Source: a bacterium (GTDB lineage: Bacteria > UBP15 > UBA6099 > DSWB01). Taken from it: a stretch of 7,679 nucleotides of DNA. Every line of letters begins with the position of its first letter. The first letter of the stretch is position 1. Positions 626 to 7,679 of the stretch are shown here, in pieces. The stretch spans positions 1-7,679 of the forward strand of contig JAGUYV010000409.1 of assembly GCA_020061125.1 (NCBI GenBank). Reading direction: 5' to 3'. Below the pieces are notes generated by a model, which made no database searches, had not been told where the DNA came from, and worked only from the letters and a program-made list of their open reading frames with translations. Both the position numbers and the translations under genes were made by a program.

Positions 626-3109
626 TCATGGGTGCGAGAATTCCAGCGCCCATGTGATGGTGTTGCTGAAAAGCGACTGACGGCGCACCCGCAGAATGCG
701 ACCGCGCTGTTCCGCCTGCACGGTTGCGCCCCCGGCCGTGGCCTTTTCCAGCTTGAACCCGTCCGGGACATGCACCGTGAGCGCATAGGGGAAAATGCTG
801 TCGCATTTCTGCCGGATTTCGAGTGTGAGGGACAAGGGGTCCCACGAGATGGATTCTATGTCCGTGCCGCCCTGTGTGACATGCCTGTTTGTGGACAGGA
901 ACTGCGGGTGCGGCTTGAGCCTGTGGATGGCGATGACATCGGTCTCGATGGGGGCCAGGCGCGCCTGGATGTGGCCGCTGCCCGGGAACTGGCCGTAGAA
1001 CCGGTCCGACCAGAAGCCCCAGGCGATGTACTGCGCTGCGGGGTCGAGTTCCAGGTCCGCGCCGCTCACAACCACGACCGTGTCCGTGGCCTCGACGAGG
1101 CCCTCCGGGTTGCGGTTCCGCCCCCAGTTGAACACGCCCGCGGCGTGCCACTGCTCGCCGCCCGCGTCCACGGACAGGTCCCACACCTGCGGATATTGCA
1201 TCTCGAACAGGTCCACGGGCCGCGCCCCGGCTTTGGAATAAACGGGCAGGAACCGCCGGAGCAGATCGAGCTGTTCGGGGTTGAGGTTTAGGAACTGGTC
1301 GCCGATTTTGGTGATGGCGCCGCTCAAGGCCACGGCGGTGCCGTACATGCGGGCCTGCGCCAGGGTGGCCTGCTTGCCCGCCCAGCGCGCGGGTTCCTCG
1401 GGGCTGCCCAGGTAGAACATGTCCGGGTGGCTGATCCAGAGGCGGTGGTTGAGATAGTAGCGGCGCGCGAGGTTGCGCAGCATGGGCTTGACGCCCTGTG
1501 CCAGATAGCCCTCGTCGTCGCCCCAGTCCGGCGTGATGTCCAGGCCAAGGCGCATGCCGTCGGCGATGCCCGCGCCCGTGTAGGTTGGCACGGCCACGAG
1601 GATTATGAAGGCATCGTCTCCCGCGGCTTCGCGGATGATGCGCAGCCCGCGGCGGAACGCCTCCACGGCCGTGGCGTCTGGATCGTGATAGCGTTCGGCC
1701 AGCAGCAGATAATAAATGAAATCTATTTTGATGACTTTGTAGCCCCAGTCGTGGCTGATGCGGCGGAACAGATCGCGGAGCCACTGCGCGGCCTCGGGAT
1801 GCGTGGGATCGAGCAGCAGCCAGTCTTTGGGTGAAAGCTCCTGGCCCTGCTTGCTTTTGGGCGCGAACCAGTCCGGATGCTCCCTGGCCAGAGCGGAATC
1901 CACGCTCACGCAGAAGGGCTGAATCCAGATGCCGGGCGTGTAGCCCAGGCCGCGGATTTCCGAGGCCACCCCGTCCATGCCCCTGGGGAACCGGGCCGGG
2001 TCCGCTTCCCAGTCGCCGTGCGCGATCATCCATCCGTCGTCAATCTGGAAGGTGCGCATGCCGAAGTCGCGCAGGGACACGGTGGCGCTCTTGGCGTTGG
2101 CGATCATGTTTCTGTGGGTGAGGCCGTGGTGCAGACTTGTGGCCCACGCGTTCCAGCCCGTGGGGATGGGCTTGGCTTTGAAGCCCGAGGGGTTGCGCGC
2201 GCCCGCGGCTTCTCCGAACGCTTCCAGTGCGCGGAACGGGGATTTCATGTCCGGCATCACGAACAGGATTTCCGACTGCCAGGACTTGCCCGCGGCCACG
2301 GGCTTTTCGGGCCGGTACGAAGACACGGCCCGCAGGGTGGAGAACCCGCGCCAGGAATCCGCGGCCACGCTGTCGCTTTCCTGGTAGCTTGCGCGCACCT
2401 GCAGAAACGCGGATTCCATGGTGACGAACCCGAGCACGGCGGAGCGGCCGGAATCGGGATCGTGGAACGCGGCGTTCCAGTTGCTGTTCACAGGCTCGGC
2501 GCCGTTCACGAGGCGCACCCAGAAGTCCATGTAAAGTTTGTGTCCGTTTTCGAGGATGCGCGCGCGCGCCGGGTCCGCGCCCAGAAACATGCCGCCGCCG
2601 CGCTGCGCCTCGGCGCGCAGAGGCTCCATGTCCTCCACGCGCAGGCTCTTCGCGCCCCGGTTCTCAACGGCGCACTGCACGGTGAAGTAAGGCAGATCGT
2701 CGTAGAACCGGAACCGGTACTCGAAGCGCGCGTTCAGAGCCGCGTCCCAGATTCCGATGTTGAGTGCGCGGCCCCGGCCCCAGGGGTCGAGGAACGCGAA
2801 CACCTCGTGCTTGCGCGGGCGCGCGCCTCCAGCCGAGGGCACGGACACGGCGTCCGAAGTGCCCTGCGGGGTCACGCGCCAGGTGGCGAACGCTTTGCGC
2901 AGAAACGGCCGCCCGTCCGGCCATTGCACATCCCACACGCCCTGTTCGAGGTTGTAGGCGAATTCATAATGCGCGCTTTTGATGCGCACCGCGGCCGCGG
3001 ACTCGGTAACTGTCAGGGGCTGGGGCGCGGACGCGGCGCGGCGCGCGGGCCACGCGCATGGGAATAGGCACACGATCAGCAGAAAAACCAGACGGGTTGA
3101 TTTCTTCAT
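626..3109 (-). CDS. Secreted GH36-type alpha-galactosidase-like glycoside hydrolase
   Basis: An 827-residue protein in the size range of clan GH-D (GH27/GH36/raffinose synthase) enzymes, which cleave alpha-galactosidic bonds with retention. Residues 1-28 form a signal peptide (MKK, then a Leu/Val/Phe core); the cleavage site is unclear because Pro follows ASA. A beta-rich N-terminal domain (about 30-305) leads into a (beta/alpha)8 barrel: TGWNAWAT at 317-324, FQIDDGW at 354-360, GIWIQPF at 393-399, nucleophile motif KIDF at 461-464 (Asp463) and GMRLGLDITPDW at 518-529, where Asp524 is the likely acid/base; NHRLWISHPD at 554-563 is also typical. The C-terminal beta region includes HPQFLSTNRHVTQG (734-747). 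Where many relatives have a Gly-Cys-Gly/Asn-Ala-Pro type motif, this one reads VAVP (505-508), hinting at altered subsites. Family and mechanism are well supported; alpha-galactosidase versus another alpha-glycosidase is inference. No clear SD precedes the ATG, but the signal peptide fixes the start. It is the last gene of the minus-strand block, 121 bases after the PHP gene. Confidence 0.88.
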   Translation of the reverse strand: MKKSTRLVFLLIVCLFPCAWPARRAASAPQPLTVTESAAAVRIKSAHYEFAYNLEQGVWDVQWPDGRPFLRKAFATWRVTPQGTSDAVSVPSAGGARPRKHEVFAFLDPWGRGRALNIGIWDAALNARFEYRFRFYDDLPYFTVQCAVENRGAKSLRVEDMEPLRAEAQRGGGMFLGADPARARILENGHKLYMDFWVRLVNGAEPVNSNWNAAFHDPDSGRSAVLGFVTMESAFLQVRASYQESDSVAADSWRGFSTLRAVSSYRPEKPVAAGKSWQSEILFVMPDMKSPFRALEAFGEAAGARNPSGFKAKPIPTGWNAWATSLHHGLTHRNMIANAKSATVSLRDFGMRTFQIDDGWMIAHGDWEADPARFPRGMDGVASEIRGLGYTPGIWIQPFCVSVDSALAREHPDWFAPKSKQGQELSPKDWLLLDPTHPEAAQWLRDLFRRISHDWGYKVIKIDFIYYLLLAERYHDPDATAVEAFRRGLRIIREAAGDDAFIILVAVPTYTGAGIADGMRLGLDITPDWGDDEGYLAQGVKPMLRNLARRYYLNHRLWISHPDMFYLGSPEEPARWAGKQATLAQARMYGTAVALSGAITKIGDQFLNLNPEQLDLLRRFLPVYSKAGARPVDLFEMQYPQVWDLSVDAGGEQWHAAGVFNWGRNRNPEGLVEATDTVVVVSGADLELDPAAQYIAWGFWSDRFYGQFPGSGHIQARLAPIETDVIAIHRLKPHPQFLSTNRHVTQGGTDIESISWDPLSLTLEIRQKCDSIFPYALTVHVPDGFKLEKATAGGATVQAEQRGRILRVRRQSLFSNTITWALEFSHP

Positions 3110-3230: not shown

Positions 3231-4841
3231 TTACCAGAAGAACCACACCGGATTCGTGTATGCCTCGAACATTTCTCCGTTGCGTTCGCTGAACACCTCG
3301 ATGCGTATGTATCCGTTTTTAAGCGTTTGCGGCAGGAGCACGGATTCCTCGATGTTCATGGGGTCCGGCGCGTAAGCGCCCGAAAAAGTGGTGAGCAGGG
3401 CCTCGCTCCCTGTCTCTAAATCACCTATTAGCACCCGAATTTCTTTGACGGGGCCGAACTCGGCCGTGGATCGCGCATATACGGCCGCGGCGAACGGTCC
3501 GCCCGAGATATCTCCCCCCGTGAATTCGGATTCGCCCCGGGTGTTGATGATTTCGAGCAGGGCGGCGGGGCCGCTGGTGGCGAACGCGCGGCCCGCTTTC
3601 AAGGCCGAAAGCAGGGACTCCGCAGTGAGCGGTCCGTTGACATGCACGGCCGTTCGGATATTGCCGAACGGCAACTGCTCGGGCCAGCGGCCGTGCTCGT
3701 AGTTGAAGTCGCCGTGCGCGTCGCTGCCGCCGATGAGCGGTTTGCGATGTCCGGCCAGGAGCGCGCGTTTCCAGTGGTCCAAACCGTCCGGCCACGGGCT
3801 GCGCGTGTGGTTCCAAACCTGCAGTCCGGACAGGGACGGGGCGATCATATCCTCGAATTCCCATTGCCCGCGGTTGAGCGCGTAGGTGGATACCGGGTCC
3901 GAATCCGTGCGCGGGTGCGCGGCGAACGCGGCTTCCGACGGCGGCATGGCGTCCGTTATGGCCGCGCACGGGTGGTCCGGGGTGTTGCCCCCGCCCTCGA
4001 ATCCGTCGCCGTTGCCGGTGTAAAGGCTCGCGTTATTGAATGTGAGCATGTGCACATTCTGACCGCCTGCGTTGCCGCATGACAACTCTTCGCCCCGGAC
4101 CAGAAGCAGGTTCGGGTGAGCGGCCGCGGCCGCGGCGATTTCCTGCTTGTACCGCTCCCAGCGCGGCAGGGCGGGATCGTTCGCAAGCGTATCGCCTTCG
4201 GCGTCGTCCAGGTCAAAGGAATGATCCGTGAACGCCAGCCAGTCCAGGCCGAACAGGTCCGCCATGCGCGCGGAGAAATCCGCGGGCGCGCCGAATTCAG
4301 CCTGATTGTCCGAGAACAGGGTGTGGAAATGCGGGTCTCCGTATTGCCAATTGTCAAACCGTGGCAGGGGCGGCGCATTCACGAACACCCGCAGGGGCAT
4401 GCGTTGCGTGTCGCGCCGGTTGTTGTTGATCACGGTGACGGGCTTGTCCCGCACCAGGAGGCGGAACTCGACGGTGATTGCGATTTCTCCGGAGAAGCCG
4501 TCCGGCACGGGGGCGTCGCGCACCTCGCGCCACCAGGGGCGTTTGAGCTTGAGATCGTAGGGGATTTCGATGCGGCCCAGTTCCGAACCCTGCGTGTCCG
4601 CGGCCGTGATGAGAACGCTCTGTAATAGAACCGGGAACAGATTGGAGTGCCGCACGACCAGGAGCACGGGCACGGGTCCGGGCCGCTCCGTGCGCGTCAC
4701 CGTGTCCGCGAGCACATCGGGCTGTTTCTTCGCGTTCATGGCGCTTTGCAGGTGCAGTTCGTCGTAAGCGCGCGCGCGCAGAACGCAAATGCAGATCAGA
4801 ATCAGAGAAATTGAAAAGGCGCGTTTCAGTGCGACAGGCAT
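3231..4841 (-). CDS. Secreted PHP-domain metal-dependent hydrolase
   Basis: A 536-residue exported protein. ATG at 4841 is preferred over the in-frame ATG at 4853 because a GGAG lies 6 bases upstream of it; the longer form adds only MESF. A signal peptide (basic, hydrophobic, then ARA|Y near residue 25) precedes a beta-rich, Ig-like N-terminal region (about 30-160). The PHP (polymerase and histidinol phosphatase) domain, about 165-430, carries all expected metal ligands: GDPHFHT (His171, His173), FTDHS (Asp206, His207), VRGEELS (Glu251/252), QNVHM (His264), AAHP (His309) and GGSDAHGDFN (Asp374, His376). A segment ending ALKAGRAFATSGP and a C-terminal beta domain match the layout of CehA/McbA-like and DUF3604-type proteins. 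PHP enzymes use two or three metal ions to hydrolyse phosphoesters, and some relatives act on other esters; the substrate here is unknown. It lies between a second PHP-like gene and the GH36 gene and has its own likely promoter upstream. Confidence 0.87.
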   Translation of the reverse strand: MPVALKRAFSISLILICICVLRARAYDELHLQSAMNAKKQPDVLADTVTRTERPGPVPVLLVVRHSNLFPVLLQSVLITAADTQGSELGRIEIPYDLKLKRPWWREVRDAPVPDGFSGEIAITVEFRLLVRDKPVTVINNNRRDTQRMPLRVFVNAPPLPRFDNWQYGDPHFHTLFSDNQAEFGAPADFSARMADLFGLDWLAFTDHSFDLDDAEGDTLANDPALPRWERYKQEIAAAAAAHPNLLLVRGEELSCGNAGGQNVHMLTFNNASLYTGNGDGFEGGGNTPDHPCAAITDAMPPSEAAFAAHPRTDSDPVSTYALNRGQWEFEDMIAPSLSGLQVWNHTRSPWPDGLDHWKRALLAGHRKPLIGGSDAHGDFNYEHGRWPEQLPFGNIRTAVHVNGPLTAESLLSALKAGRAFATSGPAALLEIINTRGESEFTGGDISGGPFAAAVYARSTAEFGPVKEIRVLIGDLETGSEALLTTFSGAYAPDPMNIEESVLLPQTLKNGYIRIEVFSERNGEMFEAYTNPVWFFW

Positions 4842-4847
4842 GAAAGA

Positions 4848-4851
4848 CTCC
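4848..4851 (-). promoter_or_regulatory. Ribosome binding site deciding the PHP gene start
   Basis: On the minus strand GGAG (4851-4848) sits 6 bases before ATG at 4841. It overlaps the alternative ATG at 4853, which itself has no SD-like sequence upstream. This is why the shorter start was chosen. Confidence 0.6.
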
Positions 4852-4879
4852 ATTGGCGGGCGTTGCCGTTGTTGCGGGA

Positions 4880-4925: not shown

Positions 4926-6002
4926 TCATTTCATCTCCGGCGCAAGGCAGTAGGGAGAGGACATGACATAATGCGGAATCTCGAACACGAAACACGCATC
5001 GGCTGCGGCATCCGGCTCAATCGTGAAGGAGAAGTCGTAGAGCGTGTACCCTTTGACCTTTTTCTCGCGGCGCGTGAATGACGGGGCCTTCACCGGGGCG
5101 TACGGCTCTCCGTTTTTATACAGCACAAGCTCGGGCTTGTATCCATTGTAGAACTTGGCGGCTGCCGTGCCCGTGATTGCGAGTCCGCCCGCGGGAGCGG
5201 TGCGTGTCTGGATGTCCGGGCGTTCGTTCAACTCGATCATGCGCGCATTGAATGCGGCCACGAGGCGGCCGCGTCGGAACGCTTCGAGCAGGGACGCGCG
5301 CGAGAACTCGTCCGGGTATGCGTATGTGGTGAATTCGCCCAGCACGGTCTGGGACATGAGGTGCATGTCAATGCCGGACACCACGAAGGGCCGCGCGCCA
5401 GAGCGCAGGGAGTTCAGATAGGCGTTGTGCGCCACGGCGAAGGTCTTGCCCTCTTCGTATCCTGGGCCGAAGTCGTTGAAAAACTCGATGCCGTGGAAGA
5501 TTTCGGGATTGGCGCTCCATGCCGGGCACGACCACGGGTGGTTCCAGATTACAACCGCGCCCTCGCGCTCCATTTCCGTCATGAGTCCCGGCATGTCTCC
5601 GGTCCATGGCGAGGCGTCCATGACCGCGGGCGTTCTGGTGTCGCTCAAGGCGTTCACATGGCACAGGATCTTCGCGTCTTCTTTGACCTCGCGCGCTACA
5701 TTGAGTTCCCGCGCGGCCAGCACCAGGAAGCCGTCCGCGTTCAGCGGGTCAACAATATAACGGTATTCTTCAAAAGAGAGATAGTTCGCATGCGGGCTGA
5801 ACATGATGCCCTTGTAGTTTTCTTTCTTGAGCCATTGCACGATGTTGGCCGCGGTCTCGGTTCCGTCGTCGCCTTCAAGTTTCTGATGCACATGCACCCA
5901 CATGGGCACGGTCTTGAACGCTTCGCCCGCGTACGCGCGTCCGCAAACCAGCGCCAGCAGCGCCGCCGCAATCATCCATTTCCCGCCCGTGAGTTTTGCC
6001 AT
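4926..6002 (-). CDS. Secreted divergent PHP-like (CehA/McbA-type) protein
   Basis: A 358-residue protein with a clear signal peptide: Lys-rich start, hydrophobic core MIAAALLALVCG, and cleavage after AYA at residue 25. The remainder follows the order of PHP/CehA-McbA-type proteins: HVH (His37, His39), a GDDG loop, SPH at 69-71, AAREL (Glu99), CHVN (His115), WNHP (His155), SGIDMH (Asp212, His214), then the segment SLLEAFRRGRLVAAF and a C-terminal beta-sandwich (about 270-358). The usual TDH motif after the second strand has become SPH, so an Asp is replaced by Pro while the His stays. The metal site is therefore altered, and activity may be changed or lost. It is first in the minus-strand block, preceded by a strong SD, and lies 84 bases before the second PHP gene, to which it is a distant paralogue. 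Its substrate is unknown. The PHP assignment rests on motif order rather than overall similarity. Confidence 0.8.
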   Translation of the reverse strand: MAKLTGGKWMIAAALLALVCGRAYAGEAFKTVPMWVHVHQKLEGDDGTETAANIVQWLKKENYKGIMFSPHANYLSFEEYRYIVDPLNADGFLVLAARELNVAREVKEDAKILCHVNALSDTRTPAVMDASPWTGDMPGLMTEMEREGAVVIWNHPWSCPAWSANPEIFHGIEFFNDFGPGYEEGKTFAVAHNAYLNSLRSGARPFVVSGIDMHLMSQTVLGEFTTYAYPDEFSRASLLEAFRRGRLVAAFNARMIELNERPDIQTRTAPAGGLAITGTAAAKFYNGYKPELVLYKNGEPYAPVKAPSFTRREKKVKGYTLYDFSFTIEPDAAADACFVFEIPHYVMSSPYCLAPEMK

Positions 6003-6005
6003 GAT

Positions 6006-6015
6006 TCACCTTCCC
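6006..6015 (-). promoter_or_regulatory. Strong ribosome binding site of the divergent PHP gene
   Basis: The minus strand reads GGGAAGGTGA followed by ATC and the ATG at 6002. AAGG ends 6 bases before the start codon and GGTGA also matches the 16S rRNA tail. The match fixes the start and shows that this organism uses SD sequences. Confidence 0.7.
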
Positions 6016-6183
6016 TGTTTCCCAATAATGAACGCCACAGCCAAAATGCTACAGTCCGTATTCTAAACGCCATGCCAAAAAAATGGAACGGGCGTGAGGC
6101 GTGCCGAGAATCTTATTGCCGCCTGACCGCTATTTTGCAAAGGGCCTGTTTTTTATCCGCAACTGCGCTATGCTTTCATAAGA

Positions 6184-6382
6184 GCGCGGCTTTGTCCGCG
6201 CAACAGTTCATGCGGATCGTTGAAACCCATATCTTCGGTGCAGGAACGCCGCTTTAAGCGGCGCACGCGAGCAAGAAACCGTTCTCGAAACTCCCGCTGC
6301 CAGATATCCATACTGTCCGCAACTCCGCGCTTTTTGCGCGCGGAGCGACCCCCGCCGTCAGGGCCGCGCTTTCATGCGCGCC
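6184..6382. repeat. Cluster of four GC hairpins with CTTT loops
   Basis: Four inverted repeats share a pattern of a GC-only stem closing on a loop at CTTT. H1 is GCGCGG-CTTTGT-CCGCGC (6184-6201). H2 is CGCCGCTT-T-AAGCGGCG (6247-6263). H3 is CTCCGCGC, TTTTTGC, GCGCGGAG (6323-6345). H4 is GGC(c)GCGC, TTTCAT, GCGCGCC (6362-6382). Loop centres are about 62, 79 and 39 bases apart, so spacing is irregular, unlike a CRISPR array. The T-run is in the loop rather than after the stem, so these are not standard intrinsic terminators. They could be repetitive-extragenic-palindrome-like elements or structures in the helicase mRNA leader. The inverted repeats are read directly from the sequence; the function is unknown. 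Confidence 0.6.
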
Positions 6383-6406
6383 GTGAGCGCGGGCGATTTC
6401 AATTAA

Positions 6407-6433
6407 AGGAAGAGGCGGCGCGCATGCCGCCTC
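6407..6433 (+). promoter_or_regulatory. Ribosome binding site and start-codon hairpin of the helicase gene
   Basis: AGGAAGAGG (6407-6415) is a good SD, with GAGG ending 8 bases before ATG at 6424. The same bases take part in a perfect 8-bp stem: GAGGCGGC (6412-6419) pairs with GCCGCCTC (6426-6433) around a 6-base loop, GCGCAT, that contains the A and U of the AUG. If it forms in the mRNA, it would hide part of the SD and the first start codon. The second in-frame ATG (6448) lies just outside the stem. Confidence 0.55.
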
Positions 6434-7679
6434 GCGTGAAATGTATCATGTCAAGTTTTGAAGAACTCAACCTGGACGCCGGGCTGCTGCGCGCGGTCCA
6501 AGCCGAGGGCTACACCGCGCCGACGCCGATCCAGACGCAGGCCATACCCCTGGTTCTGGAGGGCCGTGATCTTTTTGGTTGCGCCCAGACCGGCACCGGA
6601 AAAACTGCGGCGTTCGCCCTGCCCATTCTGCAGAGGCTGGCCCATGGCAAGCAGCCGCCCAAAGGCCGCCGGCCGGTGCGCGTGCTCGTGCTCACTCCCA
6701 CGCGCGAACTGGCCACGCAGATCGGCGACAGCTTCGCTGCCTACGGCCGCCACACCGGGCTGCGCCACGCCGTAATCTTCGGCGGCGTGAAACAGGGCGC
6801 GCAGGTGGACGCTCTGCGCCGCGGCGTGGACATTCTCGTGGCCACACCCGGACGGCTCATTGACCTTAACCAGCAGGGCTTCATCCGTTTCAACCATGTC
6901 GAGGTGTTTGTGCTCGACGAAGCGGATCGCATGCTCGATATGGGTTTCATCCATGATGTGCGCCGCATCGAGAAACTTCTGCCCAGAGAACGGCAGACCC
7001 TATTATTTTCCGCCACCATGCCCCCGGAAATCCGGGATCTGGCGGGCGCGATTCTGAACGACCCGCTCTCCGTGGCCGTGGACCCGCCCGCGTCCACCGT
7101 GGACCTGATTGAACAGCGCCTGTACTTCGTGGAAAAGCCGGACAAGCCCGCACTGCTCACGCACCTCATGCGCGACCCCGCCATGGATCGCGTTCTGGTT
7201 TTCACGCGCACCAAGTACGGCGCGGACAAAGTGTGCCGCCATCTGCGGCGCGCGGGCATCAAGGCGGACGCCATTCACGGAAACAAATCGCAGAACGCGC
7301 GCGAGGGCGCGCTGGCCGATTTCAAGCGCGGGCGCATCCGCGCGCTGGTGGCCACGGACATCGCTTCGCGCGGCATAGATGTGGATAGTGTGTCCCATGT
7401 GATCAATTACGACCTGCCGTACGAGCCGGAGAGTTATGTGCACCGCATCGGCCGCACGGGCCGCGCGGGTATGTGCGGGTCCGCCATGGCTTTCTGCGAC
7501 GAAACCGAACGCAAGCTCCTGCCCGCCATCGAGCGGCTCATGAAGAAATGGATCCCCGTGGCCGAGGAAGACCACCCGTACCGCTCGCCGCTCAAGCCGC
7601 CTCTTCCCACAGTTCTGGAGCCGGGCCGCCGCACGGGTTCCGGGGGCGCACCGCGGCAGGGCAATCCGCCCCGCCAGCA
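6424..7679 (+). CDS. rhlE: DEAD-box RNA helicase, RhlE type, 3'-truncated
   Basis: An ATP-dependent RNA helicase acting in the cytoplasm on structured RNA (ribosome assembly, mRNA turnover). The frame is open to the right edge: 418 codons from ATG 6424, or 410 from ATG 6448. Start 6424 has a good SD; start 6448 gives MSSFEELNL, which matches the usual RhlE N-terminus, so either could be right. Numbered from 6448, the motifs are: Q motif (GYTAPTPIQ, 21-29), Walker A AQTGTGKT (46-53), PTRELA (84-89), TPGR (133-136), DEAD (157-160), SAT (188-190), VLVFTRTK (249-256), [10 protein letters not shown] (302-311) and HRIGRTGR (332-339). All core motifs are intact. After about residue 380 a Pro/Arg/Gly-rich tail begins, as in RhlE proteins, and is cut by the window edge. 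The RhlE subgroup is inferred from the compact core and the tail. The gene is divergent from the PHP block and probably not functionally tied to it. Confidence 0.93.

Follow-up and report, generated by a model that had tools for sequence, protein, structure and literature searches.

A probable conserved leader RNA upstream of an RhlE-like helicase gene in a barely sampled bacterial phylum

The locus and its hairpins

The window, which is the whole stretch of DNA analysed here (7,679 nucleotides), is one entire contig (C77) of a 4.1 Mb assembly in 513 contigs that is 79% complete. The host genome (G000) has a GC content of 61%. It belongs to a phylum represented here by seven genomes, this one included, from one order, three families and four genera. 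The hairpin region sits between a divergent gene on the minus strand (4926–6002) and the following gene:

6448–7679, plus strand: gene for an RhlE-like DEAD-box RNA helicase with the Pfam domains DEAD and Helicase_C, truncated by the contig end

The start of the helicase gene was placed at the ATG at 6448 by comparison with homologues. Among the NCBIfam models, RhlE2 and RhlE rank first for the protein, with scores under the full-length cut-offs (508.9 of 925 and 490.7 of 743, respectively), and we call the predicted product RhlE-like. Its homologues in the six other genomes of the phylum show 66–78% identity. The frame is open from 6220, and a coding N-terminal extension of the helicase was considered; it was rejected, as the relative G001 has an in-frame stop codon just 5′ of its ATG. 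Three minus-strand genes of the window (626–3109, 3231–4853 and 4926–6002) encode a melibiase-like (GH36-type) protein and two probably secreted proteins. The latter two are without a Pfam match and appear by eye to resemble PHP-type phosphoesterases.

The sequence-only reading had described four GC-rich hairpins within 200 bases. All four were confirmed: GCGCGG(CTTTGT)CCGCGC at 6184–6201, CGCCGCT(TTA)AGCGGCG at 6247–6263, CTCCGCGC(TTTTTGC)GCGCGGAG at 6323–6345 and CGCGC(TTTCAT)GCGCG at 6365–6380. A fifth, stronger hairpin, GAGGCGGC(GCGCAT)GCCGCCTC, had been omitted and lies at 6412–6433. Measured against dinucleotide shuffles, positions 6184–6382 hold four hairpins of at least 5 bp where 1.5 are expected (P 0.03) and three of at least 6 bp where 0.49 are expected (P 0.007). 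When the fifth hairpin is included (6180–6440), there are three stems of at least 7 bp (P 0.0005). Within the window, 6151–6350 is the sole 200-nt bin that reaches three stems of at least 6 bp; among 3897 such bins from about 200 kb of this genome, 20 do so.

Loops of the CTTT type occur in 27 of the 2728 hairpins of at least 5 bp in about 200 kb of the genome (1%), and four of the 27 are the hairpins described here; the motif was picked after it had been seen, so this rarity exaggerates the surprise. Since such loops are rare in the genome, a general bias of the background does not account for the loop start common to the four hairpins.

Layout of the leader

From 5′ to 3′, the region consists of a −10-like box, hairpin P0, a core domain, hairpins P5 and P6, an AAGGA motif, hairpin P7 and the ATG. 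The individual features are as follows.

6169–6174, plus strand: TATGCT, a −10-like box that would belong to the promoter of the leader, recognised by eye and by its position in relatives
6184–6201, plus strand: hairpin P0 (the first hairpin above), just 3′ of the presumed transcription start; a hairpin of altered sequence occupies the same slot in G001 and in genus g3, and is doubtful in G005
6210–6321, plus strand: core domain P1–P4, matched once per genome in 7/7 genomes of the phylum
6211–6216 with 6316–6321, plus strand: long-range closing stem P1, with invariant GCGGA/UCCGC, enclosing P2, P3 and P4
6229–6233 with 6303–6307, plus strand: stem P2 (6229–6307), with two-sided changes in 5/7 aligned pairs
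6247–6263, plus strand: hairpin P3 (the second hairpin), with two-sided changes in 6/9 aligned pairs
6268–6271 with 6284–6287, plus strand: stem P4 (6268–6287), CGAG with CTCG; CGAG/CTCG in two genera and GGAG/CTCC in another
6323–6345, plus strand: hairpin P5 (the third hairpin), beginning 1 nt past the core; a hairpin 0–1 nt after UCCGCA in four genera
6350–6396, plus strand: hairpin region P6, from minimum-energy folds, outer limits approximate; its tip at 6365–6380 is the fourth hairpin
6405–6410, plus strand: Shine–Dalgarno-like AAAGGA; AAGGA stands immediately 5′ of P7 in four genera
6412–6433, plus strand: hairpin P7 (the fifth hairpin), between AAGGA and the start codon, present in four genera

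The four hairpins had been read as one repeated form. They are instead four different stems of a larger fold (P0, P3, P5 and the tip of P6), and the best conserved parts of that fold, namely the closing stem P1, P2, P4 and P7, were not on the original list.

The −10-like box reads TATGCT in G001, CATGCT in genus g3 and TATACT in G005. A consensus scan did not find a full sigma-70 promoter at the leader start, and we therefore infer the start site, which would lie near 6180. A scan of 6000–6480 for intrinsic terminators (a GC hairpin with a run of T after it) gave terminator-like sites on the minus strand only and none in the leader's sense strand. Within the core, P4 is followed by a conserved GAAA/GAUA...CC strand. 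The register of P4 differs slightly in the minimum-energy fold of the window. P5 varies in sequence and loop length among the four genera. P6 is a long hairpin in the minimum-energy folds of all four, and it cannot be aligned in sequence or length and has no pair counts.

The CTTT loop start differs among the homologous leaders, and the hairpin positions are retained. In relatives, the loops of P0 are TCAGGG or GCGA, those of P3 are ACGAA or GAAGGCAA, and those of P5 are ATAATAAG, GCGA or TTTTC. U-rich tips reappear in P6 of genus g3 and in P5 of G005, and not in G001. The CTTT loops are thus a trait of this one species. P5 and P6 of the window have CCGCGCTTT in common, and local duplication or a U-binding partner are possible reasons for the sharing of the loop.

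Two further observations concern the ends of the leader. The strands P0b (6191–6203) and P1b (6313–6323) have TGTCCGC and a nearby CAAC in common, and either is a potential partner of the P1a strand GCGGAT. Such a possible switch is seen in three genera and is weak when compared with shuffles. At the 3′ end, a mini-ORF of six codons (ATG TAT CAT GTC AAG TTT TGA; 6441–6461) overlaps the helicase start in a different frame. It has a counterpart in genus g3 (ATG TTT TAT GTC AAG TTT TAA) and is absent from G001 and G005.

Conservation and covariation in the phylum

The same leader plan lies upstream of the same helicase in all six other genomes of the phylum. The sequence-only reading had called for a covariance model of the four hairpins and a search of this genome and its relatives. 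Here, the full model of the larger fold gave a single hit per genome in all seven, in every case 5′ of the orthologous helicase gene, which is the conserved position expected of a structured cis-regulatory 5′ leader. When the model was built without the window, it recovered the window as its only match in the 4.1 Mb genome (E 1.1e-4, 35.9 bits). The corresponding model without G005 missed the G005 locus in a genome-wide search and matched it in a local search (E 0.002). The gene upstream of the leader is different in each of the four genera (in g3 it resembles the ATP synthase epsilon subunit, judged from its sequence); thus, the leader travels with the helicase gene. By genus, the core from P1 to P1′ measures 112, 114, 116–117 and 109 nt, and the P5–P6 stretch has a length of 84–119 nt.

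A plain MAFFT alignment misaligned the core, and RNAalifold run on it showed little covariation, with P2 and P4 out of register. We aligned the core by structure, with N padding to keep the registration. In this alignment of seven genomes from four genera, in which four rows are near-identical congeners and hand fitting favours structure, 89.5% of the cells are paired and 12 of the 26 pairs show two-sided changes, as compared with 3.1 in shuffles. The observed values were reached by 0 of 500 shuffles. Sliding the 3′ partners by 1–3 columns reduced core pairing to 30–54%. Of the two-sided pairs, five are in P2, six in P3 and one in P4. P1 is invariant save for its outermost pair; because its five inner pairs never vary and hence show no covariation, its pairing is taken from complementarity.

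Outside the core, the hairpins were placed by anchors (UCCGCA for P5 and AAGGA for P7) with one sequence per genus. On this basis, P5 has 4 two-sided pairs, with 24/24 cells paired, and P7 has 6. P0 has 5 two-sided pairs in three genera. A lack of compensatory changes in homologous regions had been named beforehand as the outcome that would speak against selection on structure. Across the four genera of the hand-fitted alignments, compensatory changes of the kind expected of a structured leader are found in the core, P0, P5 and P7. The cores of G001 and g3, taken alone, are no more stable than shuffles. The P7 slot by itself exceeds its shuffles in fold stability in every genus (z −2.9 to −3.9, P ≤0.015). 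The worry over hand fitting is limited because of this result for P7 and because the held-out model recovers the window.

Beyond the phylum, the full model gave zero matches in 379 other genomes under stricter filters. At 90 helicase loci of other phyla, the covariance model found nothing significant; the best hit was a partial match of 33 nt with an E value of 3.4. A search of 110 leaders for the pattern GCGGA...TCCGC gave scattered matches, and no sequence from other phyla was convincing as a homologue. The element looks restricted to this phylum as far as the searched genomes show. Rfam 15 has no match at the gathering threshold for the window or the homologous loci, and a relaxed threshold gave chance-level scores only. 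The sequence-only reading had proposed selection on structure in the leader of an RNA helicase gene and had recognised no known RNA family. It holds up on all these points: homologous leaders with two-sided pair changes occur in seven genomes, the same gene is downstream in each, and Rfam offers no family. From these comparisons, the hairpins very probably belong to a conserved structured 5′ leader.

Proposed function and its alternatives

The fold is kept while much of the sequence changes, which suggests that the leader controls the amount of helicase. The reading that we prefer is that of a conserved leader RNA of about 265 nt, confined to one small phylum, which forms part of the message for an RhlE-like helicase and regulates helicase expression in cis, most likely by negative feedback. 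Taken as a whole, this statement has in our view an even chance of being right. P0 would cap and protect the 5′ end of the message, and the compact P1–P4 core may serve as a sensing or binding domain. P5–P7 would form a stable stretch that closes with a GC hairpin inside the ribosome-binding region. When free helicase is abundant, the helicase, or a degradosome containing it, would bind and remodel the leader, and the remodelled message would be translated less or decay faster. When the helicase is busy on other structured RNA, for example in the cold, the leader would stay folded and stable, and more helicase would be made. The opposite sign is conceivable, where translation of the helicase depends on the opening of P7 by the helicase itself. 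Since the leader has no sense-strand terminator, control of translation or decay is likelier than attenuation or termination.

Feedback by the helicase is the leading idea because the gene product is an RNA helicase and because the leader of Caulobacter rhlE shows signs of feedback in the cited part of PMC5472812. By this analogy, action of the helicase on its own leader is plausible. According to the same part of that study, the 5′ UTR of Caulobacter crescentus rhlE is 186 nt long, has several predicted stem-loops and is required for full expression, and RhlE shows signs of lowering its own mRNA. Both systems have a long leader with stem-loops before an RhlE-type helicase; the Caulobacter gene is from another phylum, and that part of the study reports no conserved fold. 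In E. coli, the rne leader mediates feedback by RNase E through a conserved stem-loop, as cited in PMC3997798. It is likewise a folded leader and is read by the RNA-processing enzyme that its message encodes. However, the gene is unrelated and the enzyme different, and rne control depends on cutting by the bound RNase, an activity that a helicase lacks. The DEAD-box helicase CrhR of Synechocystis regulates the levels of its own transcript and protein, in part post-transcriptionally; the cited part of that work (PMC3485376) describes no conserved leader fold and leaves the mechanism unresolved.

Several other readings have to be weighed against helicase feedback. The fold itself may sense cold, as in cold-shock leaders, with the helicase not the effector. 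Some DEAD-box helicases are cold-induced via long leaders (Caulobacter rhlE, with csp genes as a parallel, in the cited part of PMC5472812), and the GC hairpin P7 is located at the ribosome-binding region. We nevertheless consider a temperature-responsive leader unlikely: it has no sequence in common with a known Rfam cold-shock leader family, and stems so rich in GC would stay paired across a modest temperature range. It is similarly improbable that the core binds another effector, such as a small molecule, a ribosomal protein or an RNA-binding protein, and that P5–P7 are the expression platform, even though the core length is held (109–117 nt) while P5–P6 vary freely, and unpaired letters such as the strand after P4 are conserved. 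Riboswitches and ribosomal protein sites are usually found at metabolic or ribosomal genes. Here, a helicase gene unlike these is the only gene concerned, with a single copy per genome, and Rfam has no match. Simple stabilisation or insulation of the message, through 5′ hairpin protection or barriers to RNases and without regulation, would fit the position of P0 at the presumed 5′ end and the strong stems, and Caulobacter rhlE is expressed more strongly with its leader, probably via stabilisation (cited part of PMC5472812). This seems quite unlikely, as it leaves the fixed core length, the invariant P1 and the conserved unpaired letters in four genera unexplained.

Generic extragenic palindromes, or chance GC hairpins of a genome with 61% GC, would have no connection to the helicase. 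In line with this, hairpins of at least 6 bp are common in the genome (about 0.5 per 200 nt, from shuffles and from the window's own bins), and the region folded as a whole has only a slight advantage in stability over shuffles (z −1.6). Against it, the leader is single-copy in the genome, and the pattern GCGCTTTN1-4GCGC is not enriched (102 occurrences vs 92 for the reversed pattern), on which grounds a REP-like dispersed palindrome was rejected. The best partial match of the leader elsewhere in the genome (G000:C7) lies past a folD-like gene; it is a hairpin resembling a terminator and is unrelated. The same slots are filled in relatives with compensatory changes, and the held-out model finds the window. 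This reading is thus largely refuted, and we regard it as very remote. Repeated insertion of a palindromic element, which the sequence-only reading had entertained, fails for the same lack of copies and of enrichment, and the hairpins in the same slots of relatives are unrelated in sequence.

More speculatively, the P1–P4 core could be a new sensor RNA that reads free helicase or RNA-folding stress and sets helicase output via a P5–P7 platform; it would act as a protein- or metabolite-binding aptamer or else imitate the natural RNA substrate of the helicase as a decoy. We hold this to be rather unlikely. Self-control of RNA helicases is known in a few bacterial species, and a conserved leader structure for such genes was not found in Rfam. 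A survey of new structured RNAs in 26 bacterial genomes names an RNA helicase only for hflX (PMC8632094). A covarying leader at an RhlE-like gene provides a defined RNA for the direct testing of helicase feedback, and a phylum that is uncultured and barely sampled gains a structured RNA family. Separately, two Flavobacteriales helicase loci (L074 and L101) have another conserved upstream stretch, GTCCAGGCGCCATC...GCGGATCATTG.ACGCCGGA, at most about 130 nt 5′ of the helicase match. It is unmatched by the leader model and is possibly an independent leader element.
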